From NCBI GenBank assembly GCA_963931925.1, contig OZ007579.1, positions 29,382,477 to 29,446,476 of the forward strand: DNA of 64,000 nt, written 5' to 3'. The notes under the pieces are model-generated. The model ran no database searches, had not been told where the DNA came from, and saw only the letters and a list, made by a program, of their open reading frames with translations. This DNA comes from Onchidella celtica. Its lineage: Eukaryota; Mollusca; Gastropoda; Systellommatophora; Onchidiidae. Below, in pieces: positions 1,890 to 32,057 of this stretch (the stretch's first letter is position 1; the number at the start of each line of letters is the position of its first letter). The translations under genes were made by a program, and so were the position numbers.

Positions 1890-4600
1890 CTATTCTGTTT
1901 CTGCCTGCACTTCTTCTTCAGCATAGAAAGGGAATTGGATTTTGCAGCAGCCTACACCTGTCATACTTTGGGGAAGAGCACCCACTACTTCCCAAGTGTT
2001 AGACAAGACATTATATTTGCTGACCATCTTCTGTCCTGATCTGGTCTGCATATTATAACCCCCCATCACATAAATATTGTCACCATAGGCCACACATGAA
2101 GCTTCTTTGTGGGGTATGAGGATAGGAGCTACGATGGTCCACTGATTTGTAGCTGGATTATAGCACTCAGACTCCATAACTGCTTGAAATCTCTGGTTTA
2201 CAAAGTCAACGTTACATCCACCAAATACATAAAATTTATCATGACAAACACACATCACATGCCATGCTCTTGGTATAAGCATTGGTGCCATTTCCTCCCA
2301 TGTGTCAACCCCTGGGTCATAACGCTGCATTTCTGAGGTGAGATGATCGGCTGAAATCCCTCCTGTGATGAAAATATGATTTCTATAAACTACTCCTGCA
2401 TGTGCACGGGAAGGCATGGGCATAGAAGAAATGAACTCCCACGTGTTTTCTTCTAGATTATAGCACTCAACTGAAGCTAGGGTTATTTCATTGGAACAAC
2501 CACCTATGGCATAGATCTTATCTTTGAATGCACATGCAAAGAAACCGGCTCGTCTCTCTAACATGGAACAAACTCCAAACCATTTATCAATTCGAGGATT
2601 ATAGCGAAGCACTGAATTAACTGCGTATTCACCATTTGGAGACTGAAAACCTGTGATGCCACCTAAAACATACAGAAAATTATTGTAAACAATCACCTGC
2701 ATGTGGCTGAGTGGACCAGGCAATGTGACTGTTTGGTGACATTTGAGCATGTTATCGGAACTTATCTTGGAGTCCAATATCAGCATTTGATCATGCATGC
2801 TGGGAGTGGAATGAATTTCTATACCACCAACACTAACTAATCTCTCAACACAGGAACGCAGACGATTAGAGTCTGAGTTTATTAATGGCTGTGAGTGAGG
2901 ATAAACGTGGTAATTAAGAGCAGCCAGAAGTATTTTGCGCAGTTCTGGGTGGGTCTTCATCAAAAGCACTTCTTGGCTCTCATAAGACAGATCAGTATCT
3001 CTGATCAGAGGAAAGCGGATCAACTTCATAAGGGCTGGAGCATGAATATACCAATCTGGATCCATTTTTAACCATTGCCAGGTGATGTCAAAAACATCTT
3101 TTTCACGGCAGCGTAAATTGTCACTTTCCAAGCAATTCATCATCTGTTCAAATGTCAGCAGTTTTAGAGTTCCATCCTTAACAATTTGCATCAAATTTCT
3201 TGCAATGAACACATCGATTTGTTGCAAAACCTTCTCCATATAGTAATGATTTGCAATGAAAGCAAATTCGTGGAAATTTGTAGTTGTCATGAAGAGTAGG
3301 AAATGTCTTTCACAAAATTCGATGGCAGGCGTGGCTAACAAATGCATTGCTGCGTCAATAGTATCCAAGAGGTAATCCCTTTCCAGAGTTGTTGTAGACG
3401 TATACATTACTTCCAAAACCTTTTGGAGCCCTTTAGCAGTTATACCTTTCAGTTCAATTTCTTTTTGACTGGATTCTTGCATGCCATTTGTAAACATGGC
3501 AAAGAAGTAATCTGAGCAAGATGCCAAGACAGCCCGGTGGCATTTGAATTCTGTACCTGCAAAGAGAAAGGAACAATTTGTAAAGGACATTGAAAAGAAA
3601 AATGAAAACAAAAAGGCCGTGGGGTGGGGGGAGGGAGTAGATTAGAAATAAACAGCAGAAATAAATCTGAAAGTATTTCATAGTTTATTAGTCCTAGATC
3701 ACCTCCGTGCAATAATAATAATGTTCGATATTATAAAAATAAAATGTCAAACATGTAAAACAGAATAATATGGTAAACAATGACTGATTATACATGTCTA
3801 ACATTCTTACACTGGAACTGATATAAGTACAGGCAAGATTTAGACAAAGGGACAGAACTGGTTGAAATTCCCAGTAAATATACCAAAAGTCAGGAATTTT
3901 ACAAATCGGTGGGGTTTATAGAAATGGTTAACAATTACGCAGAAAAGCAATATTTTTTTATTTACAAAGATGTTTCAGGCATGAGCAAATGAAGTATTAT
4001 GAGCGTTGGATGGTGCTTCATAACAAGTTTACATTTATTCTTTTGTGATGTAAAATGCAGAGCAGAAAATGATATTGTATTTAAGTTGATTTTCTTTACC
4101 TTACAAATTAAATGAAGAACTAACAATGCCATTTGATTGCAGATATTATATAACTAAACTCGAGAATAAGAATGATAAGATGCCAATATGATAATATATT
4201 TTTTCTTCTTATATCTCTTTTTATTACATAAATCCTGGAAATGTAACTTAATGAGATTATACATAAAAGGTTATTTCTAGGGATTATAATTCTTAGCTAT
4301 CATCTATGATAAAATATGGGGAAAACCATTTTATAACCAATGTGCTCTCGAAACGCAGAGAAAGAACTCTTGCCTATGAAATGAACTGTTCTATATAAAC
4401 CATATTCAGTAGAAGTAACCCTTACCATCTGCAATAAGTGTGACATCACAAAGTGCGTCATCTTCTCTGAGCTTGTTGACTCCTTTCAGGATCTCCAAGC
4501 CAAGCTTTGGGCACTCCTGTACCCGAAAGATATCAGTATCACTACCAGAAGACATTTTCTCTTCCTGAGTTAAGGTTTGGAATTTTCTGTATTCCATCAT
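1890..4600 (-). CDS. BTB-BACK-Kelch (kelch-like) protein, two coding exons
   Basis: Probable substrate adaptor for a cullin-3 ubiquitin ligase (family role). The coding exons are 4600-4426 and 3556-1890, on the minus strand. The donor GTAAGG starts at 4425. The acceptor, a pyrimidine tract ending TTTGCAG, ends at 3557. The join falls inside a glycine codon (LIAD-G-TEFKCHRAVL) and restores a canonical BTB core. The product is about 613 residues: BTB about 38-145 (DVTLIADG, HRAVLASCSDYF), BACK about 150-255, then six kelch blades with GG doublets (VGG, VLGG, AIGG, ITGG, VFGG, VMGG), a normal length for the family. Two adjacent ATGs open the frame. A splice acceptor (TTATTTCAG) ends at 4635, so a 5' UTR exon probably precedes it. 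The blades resemble the KLHL9/13/26 group, but I cannot fix the orthologue. The gene looks intact and is the only clear host gene here. A CR1-like LINE lies just upstream. Confidence 0.93.
3557..4425 (-). other. Intron of the kelch-like gene
   Basis: This 869-bp intron is bounded by GT (4425) and AG (3557) on the minus strand and splits the BTB domain. It is AT-rich with a G-rich patch near 3618-3640. No transposon or RNA gene was recognised inside it. Confidence 0.9.
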
Positions 4601-4801
4601 CTGGTTAGTGTATGATAAATGGTCTACCAGACATCTGAAATAAGGATAGTTTCACAAAGACCATGATGCCAACGCAGTGCAGGGACAGCTTGTTGTTTAT
4701 TTTTTAAACACCACTCCATGTAAGGAATTTCATGTGCTAAAACCTCAGTGTAAACTTCTACAGCTTTTGCAAAGTTCTAATCTCGATAATTTTTGGGTAA
4801 T

Positions 4802-22746: not shown

Positions 22747-24122
22747 AATGGTTTTATCCTCTTCTAGTATTAGTGTAAGAAACTGCCTGATGTTATACAG
22801 TTTTACTGGTGTTTGCTATATTAAATGGGTATACAGGAGAGTATTAAGCCAAGAGAATTAGTCTCAACAACTGGTTCAACAATACATGTATGAATCATAG
22901 TTTACCTTTGTAAGAAGATAACTTAATTCTCCCAAAGGACTAAATAAATAATATTTACCATTTAGCAGATTTTTTAACTTATGTGTTACACTGGGAATGC
23001 TGTTGTACTGGAGACTGGTAAATAGGTCTAAACTGCAGAATTATACTAAGAGAATTATTTTCAATGGTGTATATGTTAACTTTTATAAGGCAACTGGTTA
23101 ATTCCTCAATGCGTTTAAATAATGTTTGCCATTTTTCAATCCTTTATTCACACAGGTGAGGTCAAATCCACACAAAAATGAAATGGGATCATCTCACAAT
23201 ACTAAGTTGTAGCTTTGGCAGTAAGTTCTAGGATTTAGATTTATGGATAGATTAAGGTTAGACTTATTATTATCGGTATGCAGCACTAACATCAATAAAC
23301 CAAGGCTCAAAATTAGAGATTGAATCAACACAATTTGTGTGATGTGAACCAACACCTAATTATGAAATGAGTATCTTGTAGGAAATTCCATGATATCAAA
23401 TGGATGCTGTAAGCATTCGTCTCAGTAAAAAAAAAAAAAAAAAAACTTGAGAAAGGCTGTGGTGAAAGTGTGAATCACAATACATAGTCATCAGTGATAA
23501 TTGTAATTGTGTGAATTGAAATACTGTTTCTTATTTCTTTCTGCAGACACTTATCTTCATGTTCTTGAATGGCCCGGACGTGTTCTGAAATTGGACTTTC
23601 TTCCAACAGTGATAATCCCACATTTTTTGATAAGTGTGAAATGGTGAAAGAGAATTCACATCAGAAACTGTAACTCTTTGCTTTTCACTTTATTTAGCTC
23701 AATTTGTTTTTTTTGTTTTTTGTTTTCATTTTTCCTCATATCCCTCTTTCTCCTTCCAAATCACACCAGTAACAGTGCGAGTGTAAAATATAAGATACAG
23801 TATAGGGATGCTTCGCTCACGGACAGTTTGCGAAACAAATTATTCACTAATGAAATATTAGAGCTGAGGTTAAACTCTTAACTGTAAACTAAACTGAGTC
23901 TATGTCTAACGCTAATCCATCTGACAACCCTACATCAATCTGGCAGTTAAGGCTGACCTCAAGTTTGTTCATAAGGATGACATCATTCCAGTGAAGGTAC
24001 ATTGGTGTTTATGACATCACGCTGCCATCAGTTGGATGTTGGAAGTCCACTGTTATGATAATCCTACCAACCCTGAGGAAATCATATACAAAATGTAGGT
24101 TGGATCAATGTAGGGATACTGG
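22747..24122 (+). repeat. 1.3-kb monomer array, monomer 1 (least interrupted)
   Basis: This monomer runs from just after one 'gctggctggg' word to the next. Its parts recur in order at 24123-24382, 29040-34085 and 34086-36096. Landmarks are 'tttgccatttttcaatcc', 'gaggtcaaatccacacaaa', a T-rich tract with 'tttctgcagacac' (about 23540), 'gagctgaggttaaactct', and a MITE-like end. It carries an A run at about 23429-23447. No coding function is evident, although the splice-acceptor-like TTTCTGCAG is conserved in three monomers. Confidence 0.8.
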
Positions 24123-24382
24123 TTGGAAAATTGCAGCAATATACCATTGGAAAATATTTTCACTAGTGTATAGGTTTACTTTTATATGACAACTAGGTGA
24201 TTCCTCAATGGGTATAAATAATGTTTGCCACTTTTCAATCCTCGAGTCTTGTATATGAGGTCAAATCCACACAAACAGGAAATGGCATCATCTCCTATAT
24301 TACATGTGGTCTTTTGTTGCTTTTGCAGTAAACGATAAAATTTAGGTTTAAGAATAGATTACAATTAGACTTATATATATAT
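24123..24382 (+). repeat. Monomer 2, truncated by the transposon at 24383
   Basis: It matches the start of monomer 4 (34086-34345) closely and monomer 1 (about 23055-23270) more distantly. It breaks off in a TA repeat where the 4.66-kb transposon begins. Confidence 0.8.
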
Positions 24383-24395
24383 GAAGGGTTTGTCT

Positions 24396-24592
24396 GCAAA
24401 ATGCGATAAGCGCCATTTTTACAAAATCTGAGTTAGGACCATGATATGATACTTCGATGTGAGTTACATGATGTGATTAAAAAAAAATTCCACAAAAAAC
24501 GATATATCCAATGGTAATGATCCAAGAAAGTTATGTTTTTTGCAAAACACGATAAACGCCGCATTGGTTTTTGGACAAAACTCGACAAATCC
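24396..24592 (+). promoter_or_regulatory. Left subterminal repeat cluster of the TIR transposon
   Basis: Four related words of about 19 bp: GCAAAATGCGATAAGCGCC at 24396-24414, a variant at 24491-24509, GCAAAACACGATAAACGCC at 24542-24560, and a looser copy at 24575-24592. The array resembles transposase-binding subterminal repeats. Confidence 0.7.
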
Positions 24593-24674
24593 AAAGGGGA
24601 ATCCCCTGGTGGCCTCATTTCTTGTTTTGACCAATCACTGGCGATGAAGCTCGTAAGTCTGCACTAGCTTCAAA

Positions 24675-27600
24675 ATGGCGGCGCTCAGTGCTATTACAAA
24701 TACGTTCGATGACTTTTTTGAGTTTGCTTCTCCATCGCCTAGCAGGAAGAGAAAAAGAAAGTCAACGAATCCTAGTAGGGACTCCTTGAAGCATGGCAGA
24801 CACTCGGGTGTAGGAATAAATGCCCTTAGTCAGTTGCCAACATGACGAGAAGTTATTTTGCCAAGCAGCACTTTTGACTCCAGGTAAATTAACAACCGGA
24901 CCAAACAGGCTTTTATTGTATCTAGATGTGTACCTAAAATAATGAATTATGGACAAGATTATACATTGGAATCTACATCTAAATTGAAGTCAGGTTCAAG
25001 TTCTAGATCTAGAGACTAGGTAGAAATTAAGATGCCATTCAATCTGTGAGGATCTCGTACAGATCTTGATCGAGGCTAGATCTAGATCTGGATGTTGGCT
25101 TAAAATATAGACTTTAAAAGTTGGGTAGATTTAGTAGAATTTAACGGGTAGTTTCATGCTCTATATTTATCATTTCACTTGTCTCTAATATTTAGAGGGC
25201 ATCGCCTTGTTGTTTGACAAAGGATGTTGTTAGAGGAGTGTAGTCTATGCAAAGCCGAATAAAGAAAATTCGGAATTGTTCACTGTTCAGCAATAATGAA
25301 AATTAAAAATTTGGGTTGCAGACAGATCACTCTGCATTACCTTTATCTAAGCAGTTAAAAAATAAATTATATCTTTTTATTATCACAGTAGCCTATGTGC
25401 TACATAATTTTAACTGCATTTTTTAAAATGACTGTTGCTCAATCCCCAGATGATCTGCAGTTAAACTGTGAAAAGTTCTATGCCACATCTATACAGACTG
25501 AACAAGATGCACATCTGTTACGGCAGATGTCGACTGGCGAGGTGAAATGGACAAGGATTAACCCCAGTCCTGCAGGAGGCCACTATCTTGGCCTCCCAGC
25601 GCAACACACGAGGCCATTATTTTGTCCGACACGCTTAACCGTGGGTCCTGCGGGAGGCCACATTTTGGTATAGCAATGGTGCGCCTCGTGCTTTGTTTAT
25701 TCGGTTGCCGCGGCTGTCGTTTTTTTTTCACTTTTTTTTCCACACTATTTTCACGTGTTTATCTTTCCTGTCACCCCTACTATATCTAACAAAATGGTAT
25801 CGCCCGATTACATTTATTATGATGCAACTATTCGTAACTATTCATCATACTCGTGTAATAGTACTGACGGTCTGAAGTTCGAACTGGGGAAAATCTTGGG
25901 GAAACTTTTACTTTGATGCTGGTTGTTGTCCACATGTGAAATGAGAAGAAAGGGGCCATGTGCGTATCTACGTCTGTAATTATGAATTCCGATGTAATAT
26001 TAGGACATGCTGCATAAGGGCGTCTGTCAGTAGGTTTTTCATCAGGGAAAACTGGGAGAAAAAGACCGACTTTGTTGTTGATCGTGGTCTTTATTTGATG
26101 TGGTAATTAAAGAGATATTGTGTTCCTTTGATTAAACTGCTTTTCAGTACATGTATGTGCTCTACGACCTGGAAATCAAATCTCTCGCTTAAACTAACAT
26201 TATAGTAAGTGGACGCTTTACATAGTAGAGGAGGGAGAAGGCAATGTTACGATACATGTGGTTAATAAATTAAGTGAATGGCTAAAAAATAATGTGTTCA
26301 CATGAATGGCCTGACTTATGACTTAGTGACAGAAAAAGCGCAGAGGTCTTGGGAAAATAATAAAATGTGTGTTAAACGGCATGTGAATGCAGAAAATTCT
26401 TGATTTGGGGCCTTCCATTTCTCAATAAAACTTACTGCATATCATCACAAGTACTGTATCCAAATATCATAGGGGTCACTTACGATTTATCCACCACTAT
26501 TGTTGTTATTGGGTCCTGAAGTATACTCGATACATGTGTTCACAAGGACCCGATTGACCCGACCGCCGAGGTTATCGGCAACACGCGAACAATTGGCTGA
26601 CTGGCCGCTGGCTATCCTCGCACGGGGATTTACGTGGACGGGTTCACTCATCGTGGGACGAGGGTTAAAGATGATTCAGAGAGACATAAAAAGCGGTCCC
26701 TTTCTATTGTCTACAACATCCAACAGAAAGATACAGCCAGATCAATCCCTGTCTACAAGCAAACATGGGAAACATTCATGGGAATCTTCAGTAAGTTGAG
26801 AGCATAGTTGGGTGTGAATGGATTAATTTATTGGAATGTTTTTCTTCCAAACCCCCCACTCAAATAATGAATCCTTCCATGCTGACTACTGTGGTAAAAA
26901 TAATCTGAATATTTTTAAAGGCATTTTTTTTAGTTACCGTATCGTGAAACCCATGTTACTATCACAGACCTGTGAATTAAGGTAATTTAGAAATTGCTTG
27001 TTTAGAAATTTCTAGTTACGTGAAATTAAAAACTTTTGGGTTACAGGGGGAGATGAAAATGTGGTTGTGGAGGAAGAACATAATAAAAAATACTGCTAGT
27101 GATTTCACTCAAGCATTGATAATGTCATAGCTTAATTATAATGCAAACAAGGGAACAGAACTTAGATTATTTAGTTTAGGTAAATGAAACAATTATGCCT
27201 CTGTCTCAGGCAGATTATTTTGCTATGATCTCATAAATTTTATTATAACACAGACGTAAAGACCTTTCGAAAAGAGTGTTAAATCTTATGTGTGCCTGTA
27301 TGTTTCAAAAGATCGACTGCCACAGAGTGCTGCTCACTACGCAACCCATACCGAAGCTCGTCTAGAGACAAAGGGAGGTTGCAGGTAGCAGGAAAGAAAG
27401 CAAGAGCTGAGAGAAGCAATCAAGAGCCACATTTCACAGTTGATGTGCCGCACAAGCCACTATGGTCGAAAAGACCAATCTGGGAGGAAATACTTACCCT
27501 CAGATCTCTCAGTTGCAAAGATGCACAGGCTCTTTCTTGAGCAAAACCAGGCACAGATTAGTTATGCCCTCTACTACAGTGTGTTCAAATATGATTTCAG

Positions 27601-28653
27601 TCTTGGCTATGGACATCCCGCAACAGACATTTGTGCAACCTGTGTTTCGTTTAAGAATAAAATCAGAAACAATGACATCGCGCAGCAGGAAAAACTCATT
27701 TCGCAGCAGAATTTCTGTTGCATCGGCGTCATGCCAGGGCCTTTTATGATCTTCTGAAGGATGTTGAGAACACAGTTATGGTTTGCTTTGACATAATGGA
27801 AAATCTTGTACTTCCTAAATCTCCAATCGGCCAGACATTTATTCTTACAGCAGACAGCTTTACCTATATGTAATGGGCATTGTATGGCATCATGGTAAGA
27901 ACAGTCGACAAGGCAAAGAGGATGTGAGTCTCTGTGTTCGGTCAGAGTGGGAGAATCGTAAAGACAGCAACATGGATGCTTCTGCTCTAAAGCATTACCT
28001 AGAGCACATAATGTCGACACAACTCAGGCTGAGAGGCAGAAACTAAGATTGTTCAGTGATGCATGCCCTGGGCAGAAAAGGAACTCAACTATGCTTTGAG
28101 CAAGGAATATCCAAACCTGCAGATCACTCATCACTTCCCTAAACGTGGACACTCATTTTTGCCTGCAGATCGTGTTTTCGGCAGAATTGATCAAAACCTA
28201 ATGCAACACGATACCATCATGCTGCCAGAGGATTACTACAAAATTCTGTCAAAACATGGGGAGCTACATATTCATGGGAAAGACTGGGAAGCAAATGACT
28301 TCAAAACTGCTGTGTCCTCCATTTTGAAGAAAGCCAACGATTTCAAAATTTCAGAAGCAAAAGTGCTGGAGATTATGCTGGGCTGTGACAAAATTGGATT
28401 CAAACCTGCCTACACAGGTGAACCCTGCCTTCATTCCCTCTTGAAGAAAGGCAAACAGTGGTCAATTGTAGACCCAGGGCAACTGACACATGAATCCACA
28501 GTATCTGAGGCAAAGAAGAATGATGTTCTTAAGCTTCTTGATACACAGGCAGTGAACGCAGAGACAAGGACATTTTACATGCGAATACTTGCTGGCACTG
28601 TCCCAGAGGACAAGATTACCTCATCTGCAGGGTTAAATTATAAAGACAATTAA
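24675..28653 (+). pseudogene. Transposase pseudogene with SDACPGQ and RGHSFLP motifs
   Basis: Pieces of one protein appear in order. An N-terminal basic peptide starts MAALSAITNTFDDFFEF (24675-24845). An exon at about 26660-26792 ends in a GTAAGT donor and encodes a VYNI...IPVYKQTW block. A longer exon from about 27310 carries TSHYGRKDQSGRKYLPSD and a CATC pair. Around 28033-28070 is a SDACPGQ-type motif. An intact tail at 28063-28653 contains HHFPKRGHSFLPADRVFGRI and closes the protein. I associate these motifs with a widespread uncharacterised family of DDE-like invertebrate transposases. Between about 27760 and 28070 there are several stops and frameshifts, so this copy is dead. The RGHSFLP tail has stayed open for 196 codons. 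Confidence 0.75.
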
Positions 28654-28774
28654 ATTTTAAATTTGGTGAAATTTTATTAAAAATCTGCGGGGCATCTAAA
28701 TCTTGATGTTGAATACAGCTGGTTTATGTTTAGAATGATTGTGGTGTGTTTGGAATGATTCTTTTTGCTTGACT

Positions 28775-29026
28775 GGATTTGTCTCGTTTTGCACAAAAAG
28801 TACTTTGGATTTATCTCATTTTGCAAAAAAAAACAAAAAAAACCCATTTAATCATGGCTATCTTCAAAAGCATGCAAATAATATTTTAGTTTGTTTTTGG
28901 CATTTGAATGAAGCATATTTAACATTTATGATAAGCTCCATTAACAACAGTTAACAAAAATATTTTATTTGGAACAGAAATTGCTGTTTTTCTCAAAATG
29001 AGAAAAATGGATATATCTCATTTTGC
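28775..29026 (-). promoter_or_regulatory. Right subterminal repeat cluster of the TIR transposon
   Basis: Three copies of the same word in reverse orientation: 28775-28792, 28807-28824 and 29009-29026 (plus-strand form GGATTTATCTCATTTTGC). This mirrors the left cluster. Confidence 0.7.
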
Positions 29027-29039
29027 GGTCAAACCCTTC

Positions 29040-29379
29040 ACATGCATAAATCATAGTTTACCTTTGTAAGAAGATAACTTAATTCTCCCAAAGGACTAAA
29101 TAAATAATATTTACCATTTAGCAGATTTTTTAACTTATGTGTTACACTGGGAATGCTGTTGTACTGGAGACTGGTAAATAGGTCTAAACTGCAGAATTAT
29201 ACTAAGAGAATTATTTTCAATGGTGTATAGGTTAACTTTTATAAGGCAACTGGTTAATTCTTCAATGCGTTTAAATAATGTTTGCCATTTTTCAATCCTT
29301 TATTCACACAGGTGAGGTCAAATCCACACAAAAATGAAATGGGATCATCTCACAATACTAAGTTGTAGCTTTGGCAGTA
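29040..29379 (+). repeat. Monomer 3, 5' segment, nearly identical to 22882-23221
   Basis: About 333 bp (29047-29379) differ from 22889-23221 at only two or three positions by eye. The rest of monomer 3 (32079 onward) is clearly more diverged from monomer 1. This segment ends exactly where the LINE begins. Confidence 0.9.
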
Positions 29380-32057
29380 GGGGATGGGAACCCTACGGAA
29401 GGAGAATTATATTGGCATCATTTACTACTAAGAACAAGAACATCAACATGAACATTGTGCAGATATACGCCCCAACAAATGAAGCAACCGATGAGGACAA
29501 GGACGACTTCTACAACCAGCTTCAGGAAATAGTTGACACATTGCCAAGAAAAGATGTGAACATTATAATGGGAGACGCCAATGCCAAGATAGGACAGGAC
29601 AATACAGGGTATGAGGACATTATGGGGTGCAATGGTTTAGGACAAATGAATGAGAATGGAGAGCGGTTTGCAAGTTTCTGCGCATTTAACAGCTATGTGA
29701 TTGGAGGTTCAGTATTCCCACACAAGAGGATCCATAAGGCCACTTGGATTTCACCGGATGGAGTAACTGAAAATCAGATTGACCACTTTTGCATCACCCG
29801 ACGATTCAGACGCTCACTAGAGGATGTCATAGTACAGAGAGGAGCAGATGTTGGATCTGACCATCACATGCTGCTGGCAAGACTCAAACTCCGCCTCAAG
29901 AAACAAGGTACCAGAGCAGGAACAAAGAGGAGAAAGTTTCAAGTGAGCCTTGTGGATGGAGACAAGAAGGAAGAGTTCCAGCTGACACTCAGGAATAGAT
30001 TCAAACCCCTTGTTGACCTCGAAGAGACAGTAGATTTGGAGACTCACTGGGCTATGGTAAAAGGAGTATTTACATCGACATGTCAGGATGTTATTGGGGA
30101 AAAGAAAGTGGAACACAAGGAATGGATCAGTCAAAAATCACTGGACTTGATAAGGATAAGAAGAGACCTAAAAGAACGGGTAAATGCAAGTCGTACAAGA
30201 AGCTCAAGAGTTGGTAACCAGGAAGAGTACCGAGCATCAGCTAAAGAGGTCAAAAAATCAATTAAAAAAGACAAAGAGGAGTTCATAGGAATGTTAGCAG
30301 AGAAAGCAGAGAAGGCAGCAACAGGAGGACACATGAGGATCCTCTACCAGACTACAAAGACTCTTGCTGGAAAATATGGAAAACCTGAAGTTCCTGTCAA
30401 GGATTACAACAGGAAGGCTATTTTTGGAAAGGAAGCTCAGGCAAAAAGATGGATAGAACATTTTAACAGCCTCTTGAACAGACCTCCACCAAGCAACCCA
30501 CCCGACATTCTACCCGCAAGAAATGATTTACCGATCAGTTGCGACCCTCCGACTAAAGCAGAGATTAATGATGCCATAAAGCAGTTAAATCGAGGCAAGG
30601 CAGCTGGACCAGACCAGATCCCACCAGAGGCGCTGAAGGCAGATGCTGCTGGGGCTGCAGAGGGTCTGCACTCACTATTCTCGAGGATTTGGATCGGAGG
30701 CAAGTTTCCAAAGGACTGGAAGGAAGGACACCTCGTGAAGCTCCCAAAAAAAGGGGACCTCAGCAATTGTAGTAACTACAGAGGAATCACACTTCTCTCC
30801 ATCCCAGGAAAGGTTTTCAATCGGATTATTCTCAAGCGAATACAGAATGCAACAGACCAAAAACTTCGCGAGGAGCAAGCTGGTTTCAGGAGTAATCGAT
30901 CAACCACCGACCAGATCGCCACGCTGAGAATCATAGTAGAGCAGTCGCTAGAGTGGAACTCCCAACTGATAGTGAACTTCCTTGACTACGAGAAGGCCTT
31001 TGATAGCATCGATAGAGAAACACTGTGGAGAATATTGAGACATTATGGAATCCCAGAGAAGATGGTGAATCTTATCAAGAGCATGTACGAGGGGACAAGT
31101 TGTAGAGTCGTACATGATGGTGAGCTTACTGACAGCTTTGATATCAAGACTGGTGTTAGGCAGGGTTGTTTGCTGTCCCCATTTCTGTTTATCCTGGTGA
31201 TTGATTGGCTTATGAAAGAAACCACCAGTGGAGGAAGAAATGGCATACAATGGACCCCATGGACACAGCTGGACGATCTAGATTTTGCAGATGACTTGGC
31301 ACTATTGTCGCACACACACGACCAGATGCAAGCAAAGACTACAGCTCTAAACAAAATTTCAGAATCTATTGGATTGAGGATACATCCCGCGAAGTCGAAG
31401 GTCCTAAAAATTGTTGCACCCCTAAGCGAACAAGTCACAGTAGGAGATCAACCACTGGAAGATGTAGAGTCCTTCTGCTATCTTGGTAGTATCATTGACA
31501 ATAAGGGAGGAACAGAGGCAGAAGTCAAAGCACGAATTGGAAAGGCACAGGCAGCTTTCACATCCTTAAGCAAGATTTGGAGAACCAAGGATATATCTCT
31601 AAAAACAAAGCTGAGGATATTCAACTCGAACGTGAAGTCAGTCCTGTTGTATGGATGTGAGACTTGGAATGCGTCCCAGGCCTGCATAAAGAGAATCCAA
31701 GTTTTCATCAACAGATGTTTGAGGAAGCTACTTAAGATCAGATGGACAGACAAGGTCAGCAATGAAATTGTATGGAAAAGAACAAGACAGAACCCAGTCA
31801 GAGAGGAAATTGGTAGGAGGCGATGGAGATGGATCGGCCACACTCTCAGGAGGCCAGGAAACAGCATCACGAAGAAGGTATTGGACTGGAATCCCCAGGG
31901 CAAGAGATCAAGAGGAAGGCCGCGCGGAACGTGGAGAAGAGCCAGAGAAAGTGATGTGCAACGAAGCGGAAAGACTTGGAATAATGTAAAGAGGCTGGCC
32001 CATGATAGAGAGGGATGGAAGGTGTTTGTTGGTGGCCTATACCCTGATCCAGGGTGA
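29334..32057 (+). CDS. RTE-type LINE polyprotein: endonuclease (partial) and reverse transcriptase
   Basis: A 907-codon uninterrupted frame. Its first 15 or so codons (from ATG 29334) come from the flanking monomer and are a chance fusion. The LINE protein begins near GWEPYGRR. The apurinic-like endonuclease keeps IIMGDANAKIG and GSDHHMLLARL but lacks its N-terminal catalytic strands. The reverse transcriptase follows at about residues 400-740: PKDWKEGHLVKLPKKG, NYRGITLL, EEQAGFRSNRST, FLDYEKAFDSI, TGVRQGCLLSP, and the catalytic FADD at about residue 651. The C-terminal part has RRRWRWIGHTLRR and GRPRGTWRR, common in this LINE group. The function would be target-primed reverse transcription, but the truncated endonuclease should leave the copy immobile. 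The lack of stops implies a recent insertion. Confidence 0.92.
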   Translation: MKWDHLTILSCSFGSRGWEPYGRRIILASFTTKNKNINMNIVQIYAPTNEATDEDKDDFYNQLQEIVDTLPRKDVNIIMGDANAKIGQDNTGYEDIMGCNGLGQMNENGERFASFCAFNSYVIGGSVFPHKRIHKATWISPDGVTENQIDHFCITRRFRRSLEDVIVQRGADVGSDHHMLLARLKLRLKKQGTRAGTKRRKFQVSLVDGDKKEEFQLTLRNRFKPLVDLEETVDLETHWAMVKGVFTSTCQDVIGEKKVEHKEWISQKSLDLIRIRRDLKERVNASRTRSSRVGNQEEYRASAKEVKKSIKKDKEEFIGMLAEKAEKAATGGHMRILYQTTKTLAGKYGKPEVPVKDYNRKAIFGKEAQAKRWIEHFNSLLNRPPPSNPPDILPARNDLPISCDPPTKAEINDAIKQLNRGKAAGPDQIPPEALKADAAGAAEGLHSLFSRIWIGGKFPKDWKEGHLVKLPKKGDLSNCSNYRGITLLSIPGKVFNRIILKRIQNATDQKLREEQAGFRSNRSTTDQIATLRIIVEQSLEWNSQLIVNFLDYEKAFDSIDRETLWRILRHYGIPEKMVNLIKSMYEGTSCRVVHDGELTDSFDIKTGVRQGCLLSPFLFILVIDWLMKETTSGGRNGIQWTPWTQLDDLDFADDLALLSHTHDQMQAKTTALNKISESIGLRIHPAKSKVLKIVAPLSEQVTVGDQPLEDVESFCYLGSIIDNKGGTEAEVKARIGKAQAAFTSLSKIWRTKDISLKTKLRIFNSNVKSVLLYGCETWNASQACIKRIQVFINRCLRKLLKIRWTDKVSNEIVWKRTRQNPVREEIGRRRWRWIGHTLRRPGNSITKKVLDWNPQGKRSRGRPRGTWRRARESDVQRSGKTWNNVKRLAHDREGWKVFVGGLYPDPG

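Follow-up and report, generated by a model that had tools for sequence, protein, structure and literature searches.

What kind of mobile element lies between positions 24383 and 29039 of a 64,000-nucleotide (nt) stretch of the Onchidella celtica genome (contig OZ007579.1; the whole stretch is called the window here), and which protein would have moved it? A reading made from the window's sequence alone (the sequence-only reading) had described a terminal inverted repeat (TIR) transposon with mirrored subterminal repeats and a transposase relic that it could not place in a named superfamily. The analyses reported here make it very probable that the locus represents an inactivated cut-and-paste DNA transposon characterized by a DUF7869 transposase, arrays of GCAAAA-type words and a 4-bp ANNT target duplication. 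Coordinates are collected in Table 1.

The outer boundaries of the element were defined from the window and from its genomic copies. The 10-mer GAAGGGTTTG forms the tips at 24383-24392 (+) and 29030-29039 (-) in inverted orientation; both of its exact copies in the 64-kb window are these tips, and they are part of two inverted 35-nt stretches with 83% complementarity. Using the left terminal 258 bp of the element as a probe of the 1.14-Gb genome, we found matches at at least 40 loci including the window, in 42 matched stretches (best 40 of 185 candidates scored). The terminal bases of genomic copies coincide with those of the window element, and with these ends the TIR transposon proposed by the sequence-only reading stands. 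The left end of the window element is 72 to 88% identical to those of other copies, which suggests that the copies of this family are old. A form of ∼1.2 kb recurs (L030, L031, L038, and others) in which element positions 1-811 are fused to 4190-4657; it is an internally deleted long form. Further copies are shorter still.

The coding content was mapped by tblastn with P0002, a 594-amino-acid (aa) protein of Elysia chlorotica, whose residues 13-584 are collinear through the element. By this alignment, the window gene is near full-length and interrupted, and it is more than a 3' relic because exon 1 begins at ∼24675, just inside the left end. The two motif blocks that had been noticed in the transposase are both present: SDACPGQ begins near 28055 and RGHSFLPADRVFG near 28144. 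A nested TTAA-edged repeat splits exon 2, and exon 3 carries several frame changes and one or more in-frame stops; the latter lesions therefore leave the window copy unable to make transposase. As a separate observation, the nested repeat within exon 2 has CCC..GGG-like tips and looks like a piggyBac- or Kolobok-type insertion.

To which family does this protein belong? A joined read-through query gave 216 relatives at an E value of ≤0.001, and among the best 120 of these, ∼100 carried PF25273 (DUF7869). The nearest relatives, 66% identical over the query, were an unnamed 442-aa protein (P0001) and P0002 (EGW08_021756), which has the same motifs and is annotated merely as a hypothetical protein. 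P0002 matches PF25273 with 37.8 bits (cut-off, 26), and 62 of the 65 members of relative set A1 match it at an E value of ≤1. A Pfam scan of the four short, decayed frame pieces of the window yielded sub-threshold matches only and none to PF25273; one short piece touched DDE_1 (E value of 0.16, 12 bits versus a cut-off of 22). The Pfam family was recognized through P0001 and P0002, and by way of these relatives the window transposase is assigned to PF25273. The protein that the earlier reading could not place thus belongs to a named domain family, DUF7869, to which no function is assigned. The domain comprises hundreds of related protein clusters, including those of fish, molluscs (Gigantopelta and Plakobranchus among them), insects, Hydra, and a starfish.

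The DUF7869 core is predicted to adopt an RNase H integrase/transposase fold, the DDE/D core fold seen in Tc1/mariner and retroviral integrase. Three acids, D312, D399, and D440, are conserved in the alignment. D440 is the third residue of helix 438-451, which follows the last core strand, and E447, 7 residues past it, is nearly as conserved; the third catalytic acid is probably D440, which would give a DDD core. The top Foldseek match was TnsB (E value of 5.7e-4; TM-score of 0.16), and Foldseek matches to Argonaute proteins were taken to reflect the common RNase H fold. Sequence searches of PDB gave nothing relevant, and a BFVD search gave no match at an E value of ≤0.001. None of 68 pattern matches in viral contigs, and none of 50 in bacterial and archaeal genomes, was confirmed as a DUF7869 relative.

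The length of the target-site duplication was surveyed at 40 loci (39 plus the window), in 29 of which right ends were called automatically. At the called ends, exact repeats of 4 bp were present in 12 copies, of 2 bp in 5, and of 3 bp in 1; exact duplications of 5, 6, 7, or 8 bp were found in 0 of the 29. As a control, the left flank of one copy was compared to the right flank of another, and 56 of 812 such pairs (6.9%) were exact at 4 bp. Among the 17 non-exact cases, several right ends are implausible, and at L043 the automatic caller took the wrong end, the BLAST ends giving AGTT/AGTT. Other cases, among them the window, L044, L057, and the duplicates L062 and L063, are genuine copies with one mismatch. 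The exact duplications read across all loci number 23; every one fits ANNT, and 17 fit AWWT. The target duplication of this family is 4 bp. Two observations concern the copies surveyed. L062 (C10:36278639) and L063 (C10:36238362), 40 kb apart, have identical ends, duplication, and 56-base flank, pointing to segmental duplication. In addition, two groups of left ends have much the same upstream flank (L047, L059, L064, and L069-L071; L053, L061, L067, and L068), and the copies in these groups probably spread as part of another repeat.

We then asked how the ends are distributed relative to DUF7869 genes elsewhere in the genome. A search gave 25 DUF7869 matches, 20 of which were taken as loci; removal of the window and one duplicate place left 18 others, with flanks of 1.5 kb (wider for L049-L052). 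A GAAGGGTT-type right end lies 3' of the gene at 14 of these 18 loci, a left end is present at 13, and both are present at 11. Ten of the 11 two-ended loci have an exact 4-bp duplication, and the eleventh, L025, has a single mismatch. Sorted on their end sequences, the 14 right-end loci divide into lineages B (10 loci: L014, L017-L021, and L023-L026), C (L010 and L013), D (L016), and A (L028), the last being that of the window. The left end of L010 was found in its wider version, L049; the wider fetch revealed no ends at L052 and a right end only at L050. Across the Onchidella celtica genome, these sequences tie the DUF7869 transposase to fixed ends and a near-fixed word layout. The sequence-only reading had claimed the link between protein and ends from one locus and had named termini unlinked to the transposase as grounds for rejecting it; in the source genome, the two occur together.

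The layout itself was examined next. The seven 19-bp words, four forward at the left end and three reversed at the right, confirm the mirrored words reported previously and are enriched relative to shuffled sequence. With the pattern CAAAA-N(1-6)-GAYAW, 260-bp slices, and 2000 shuffles, the left 260 bp contained 4 matches (shuffle mean, 0.06; reached in 0/2000 shuffles) and the right 260 bp contained 2 (mean, 0.05; reached in 2/2000), the third right word extending past the slice. In the 2942 overlapping 260-bp intervals lying outside the element, a strand never had more than one match. Word distances from the tips in lineage A (left 14, 110, 160, and 193; right 14, 216, and 248) are nearly equal to those in the consensus of lineage B (left 14, 110, 162, and 194; right 14, 206, and 240) and in lineage C (left 14, 105, 157, and 190 in L049; right 14, 209-213, and 247, the last seen in L013 only). 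The proteins of these three lineages are 32 to 44% identical over shared residues (A-C, 230/518; A-B, 84/242, with L014; B-C, 74/228); the value for A-D is 154/310. The word of lineage C differs (ACAAAATGCNTTAT), and the changed form occurs at either end of L049 and, in L013, at the right end. Some loci depart from the common layout: the right end of L017 (14, 175, and 209), the degenerate A-type L028 (left 107, 172, and 212; right 14, 210, and 234), L016 of lineage D (right matches at 14 and 32, inner pair not seen), and the left end of L012 (sole match at 190). Weaker matches were excluded (right 47 and 256 of B; 232 in L013), as were lineage A matches with three or four mismatches, among them left 39 and right 67, 146, and 272.

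Is the spacing maintained beyond what the surrounding sequence would predict? Identity within words versus between words was 50/72 versus 47/124 for the A/B left ends, 42/72 versus 32/120 for A/C left, 36/72 versus 34/121 for B/C left, 45/54 versus 88/188 for A/B right, and 32/54 versus 66/195 for A/C right. Under random placement, all three inner left words fell within 2 bp of those of lineage A in 0.011% of trials; with a tolerance of 5 bp, the figure was 0.12%. Gapped alignment of the between-word sequence gave near shuffled levels for A/C and somewhat higher values for A/B left (0.59, 0.50, and 0.47 versus 0.48, 0.48, and 0.41 shuffled). The positions could persist through shared ancestry alone; because spacing is kept while the between-word sequence has mostly diverged, selection on site and spacing appears to be the simplest reading. 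The layout kept across lineages A, B, and C is consistent with the earlier suggestion of binding sites, and the words are probably transposase-binding sites in a conserved asymmetric arrangement. A relationship of word spacing to the DNA helical repeat was also considered and dropped, as multiples fit only roughly by eye.

Taking these observations together, transposition could proceed as follows. An intron-containing gene would encode a DUF7869 transposase of ∼590 aa, the N-terminal part of which, with its helix-turn-helix-like segment, would bind the GCAAAA-type words. Four left and three right words at near-fixed distances would organize a multimeric, asymmetric complex bringing the two ends together. 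Cleavage at the GAAGGG tips would fall to the RNase H core (D312, D399, and D440), and joining of the cut ends to ANNT targets with a 4-bp stagger would produce the duplication.

Several observations weigh against this account of the element. The duplication of the window copy is itself imperfect (ATAT/ACAT), 11 of the 40 left-end loci have no called right end and several other calls are implausible, and some left ends appear to have been copied inside another repeat because their upstream flank is common. Nine of the 11 two-ended loci are internally deleted lineage B copies, leaving few independent lineages; since these nine are one family, they support the duplication and are hardly separate tests of linkage. 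No convincing right end is seen at 4 of the 18 loci (L011, L012, L015, and L022), 5 of the 25 matches lie outside the examined loci, and the TM-scores of the best Foldseek matches are low. Most fetched end copies are short and have no catalytic region, as would be expected had ends and coding relic been brought together by chance or nesting. However, the recurrent short form is the long form with an internal deletion, and divergent DUF7869 genes sit within the same kind of ends, which refutes chance or nesting within the source genome and makes such an origin extremely improbable. The position of the left array immediately upstream of the start codon would also suit promoter, silencing, or structural repeats that survive in the ends and are not transposase sites. 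This alternative is very unlikely: the same words are mirrored at the right end, the TIR itself is overlapped by the first word, the lineages maintain the spacing although the rest of their end sequence has mostly diverged, and the lineage C word has changed at both L049 ends and at the right end of L013.

Given a transposon of this kind, does it already have a name? Kolobok elements target TTAA, and the P element duplicates 8 bp. None of the 23 duplications is TTAA, and both piggyBac, which also targets TTAA (PMC7351741), and Kolobok were rejected. The absence of exact duplications of 5 to 8 bp (0/29; the scan covered up to 8 bp) led us to reject hAT (5 to 8 bp), P, MULE (7 to 12 bp; PMC10741241), and Zisupton (8 bp; PMC12730594). 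IS3EU is likewise a eukaryotic TIR transposon superfamily, but its fungal families have 6-bp duplications and TAYGG..CCRTA ends (PMC12730594), whereas the elements described here have 4-bp duplications (0/29 at 6 bp) and GAAGGG ends; it was rejected. We keep the element as a DUF7869 transposon, probably Sola2 or a sister group; of the existing names, Sola2, a group within the Sola superfamily, would be the likeliest.

We give an even chance to the possibility that the family is Sola2, already classified in Repbase and masked by the name DUF7869; this would be the match to a classified superfamily that the sequence-only reading had named as its other ground for rejection. Published descriptions give AT-rich 4-bp duplications for Sola2 (AWWT; ATAT, AAAT, and ATTT; PMC3627910), TIRs, and a size of 2 to 9 kb that includes the present element, and for Sola in general transposases of the DDD type, duplications of 4 bp, and ends that vary greatly (PMC10741241). 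Here, 17 of 23 duplications are AWWT (6 are not), and the probable third acid of the core is D. However, a mollusc survey with Sola1-3 profiles that included five gastropods reports Sola in bivalves only (PMC10294476), whereas DUF7869 occurs in the source genome, Elysia, Plakobranchus, and Gigantopelta; this absence is weak evidence because the survey required long open frames (PMC10294476). Sola has also been reported in bacteria (PMC10741241), whereas our pattern-based bacterial and archaeal scan confirmed no DUF7869 relative. A search with the insect-rich profile A2 towards Dictyostelium Sola2 returned named rows that were all insects (best 120 of 527). Somewhat less probable is that DUF7869 elements constitute an unnamed superfamily of eukaryotic cut-and-paste transposons. 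The names DUF7869 and PF25273 were not met in the literature searched, the Pfam families of 65 relatives included no DDE family among the best 25 of 30, and the duplication and ends of IS3EU do not fit; however, Repbase is likely to list so common a family of insects and fish already under some name, and the Sola traits fit. More tentative still is the proposal that DUF7869 defines an unnamed animal-wide cut-and-paste superfamily with, as its hallmark, an asymmetric 4+3 word array of near-fixed distances and changeable word.

The proposed end complex, multimeric and asymmetric, may find its nearest analogies in Tn7-type and Hermes systems. Tn7 has several words per end and duplicates 5 bp. Hermes has an 8-bp duplication, BED domains, and a different transposase. 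The Tn7-type system shares unequal left and right ends (PMC13370975), an RNase H core, and the top Foldseek match, but no sequence kinship was found. Hermes, a hAT transposase, forms an octamer in which several DNA-binding domains contact the left end extensively and asymmetrically (PMC10368747).

Assignment of the element gives a widespread DUF, with a span from Hydra and insects to fish, a probable transposase function, a target duplication, exactly defined ends, and probable binding sites. DUF7869 genes could then be masked correctly by annotators, and biochemists would gain a testable eukaryotic transposase whose multi-site ends are asymmetric, for which the differences in words and proteins among lineages A, B, and C are a natural specificity experiment. 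If the superfamily does prove unnamed, it would give eukaryotes a counterpart of Tn7 and its asymmetric multi-site ends, with a geometry that outlives sequence.

Table 1. Features of the element, in window positions
Feature	Positions	Strand	Remarks
Whole transposon	24383..29039	+	4657 bp; ends common to genomic copies
Left TIR	24383..24409	+	Takes in start of first binding word
Right TIR	29013..29039	-	Takes in start of first binding word
Left target-duplication copy, ATAT	24379..24382		One mismatch versus right copy
Right target-duplication copy, ACAT	29040..29043		One mismatch versus left copy
Probable binding word L1	24396..24414	+	14 from left tip
Probable binding word L2	24492..24510	+	110 from left tip
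Probable binding word L3	24542..24560	+	160 from left tip
Probable binding word L4	24575..24593	+	193 from left tip
Probable binding word R1	29008..29026	-	14 from right tip
Probable binding word R2	28806..28824	-	216 from right tip
Probable binding word R3	28774..28792	-	248 from right tip
Transposase exon 1, N terminus, broken frame	24675..24883	+	tblastn, P0002 residues 13-70; GT donor after 24883
Transposase exon 2, first part	25449..25559	+	P0002 residues 72-108
Nested independent repeat	25558..26668		TTAA at both edges; matches in L030 and L048
Transposase exon 2, second part; helix-turn-helix-like region begins	26669..26789	+	P0002 residues 107-146; tblastn segment 26661-26789
Transposase exon 3, DxCxxC motif and predicted RNase H catalytic core	27302..28653	+	P0002 residues 148-584 matched to 28599; frame open to 28653

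In a phylogenetic tree that left out lineage B, the window protein clusters with P0001 and P0002 (support, 100/100). Five rows from the source genome fall in four places (the window; L050 beside the window, 93/93; L049 with L013; and L052), interspersed among mollusc, fish, and other animal proteins. Nine of the insect proteins make up a group of their own, with the cockroach protein P0147 outside it. Fish, Gigantopelta, and sea spider proteins (P0008 and P0012; P0045, P0050, P0036, P0038, and P0041) are intermixed with support of 100/100, a pattern for which horizontal transfer may be worth a test.

The surroundings of the element are repetitive as well. Directly to its right, a 913-codon open frame at 29316-32057 reads, by eye, as the endonuclease and reverse transcriptase of a non-LTR (long terminal repeat) retrotransposon. 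Direct repeats of 223 bp that are 99% identical (23001-23223 and 29157-29379) flank the element, together with further diverged repeats, and the element is set among repeated segments that probably derive from a long interspersed nuclear element.

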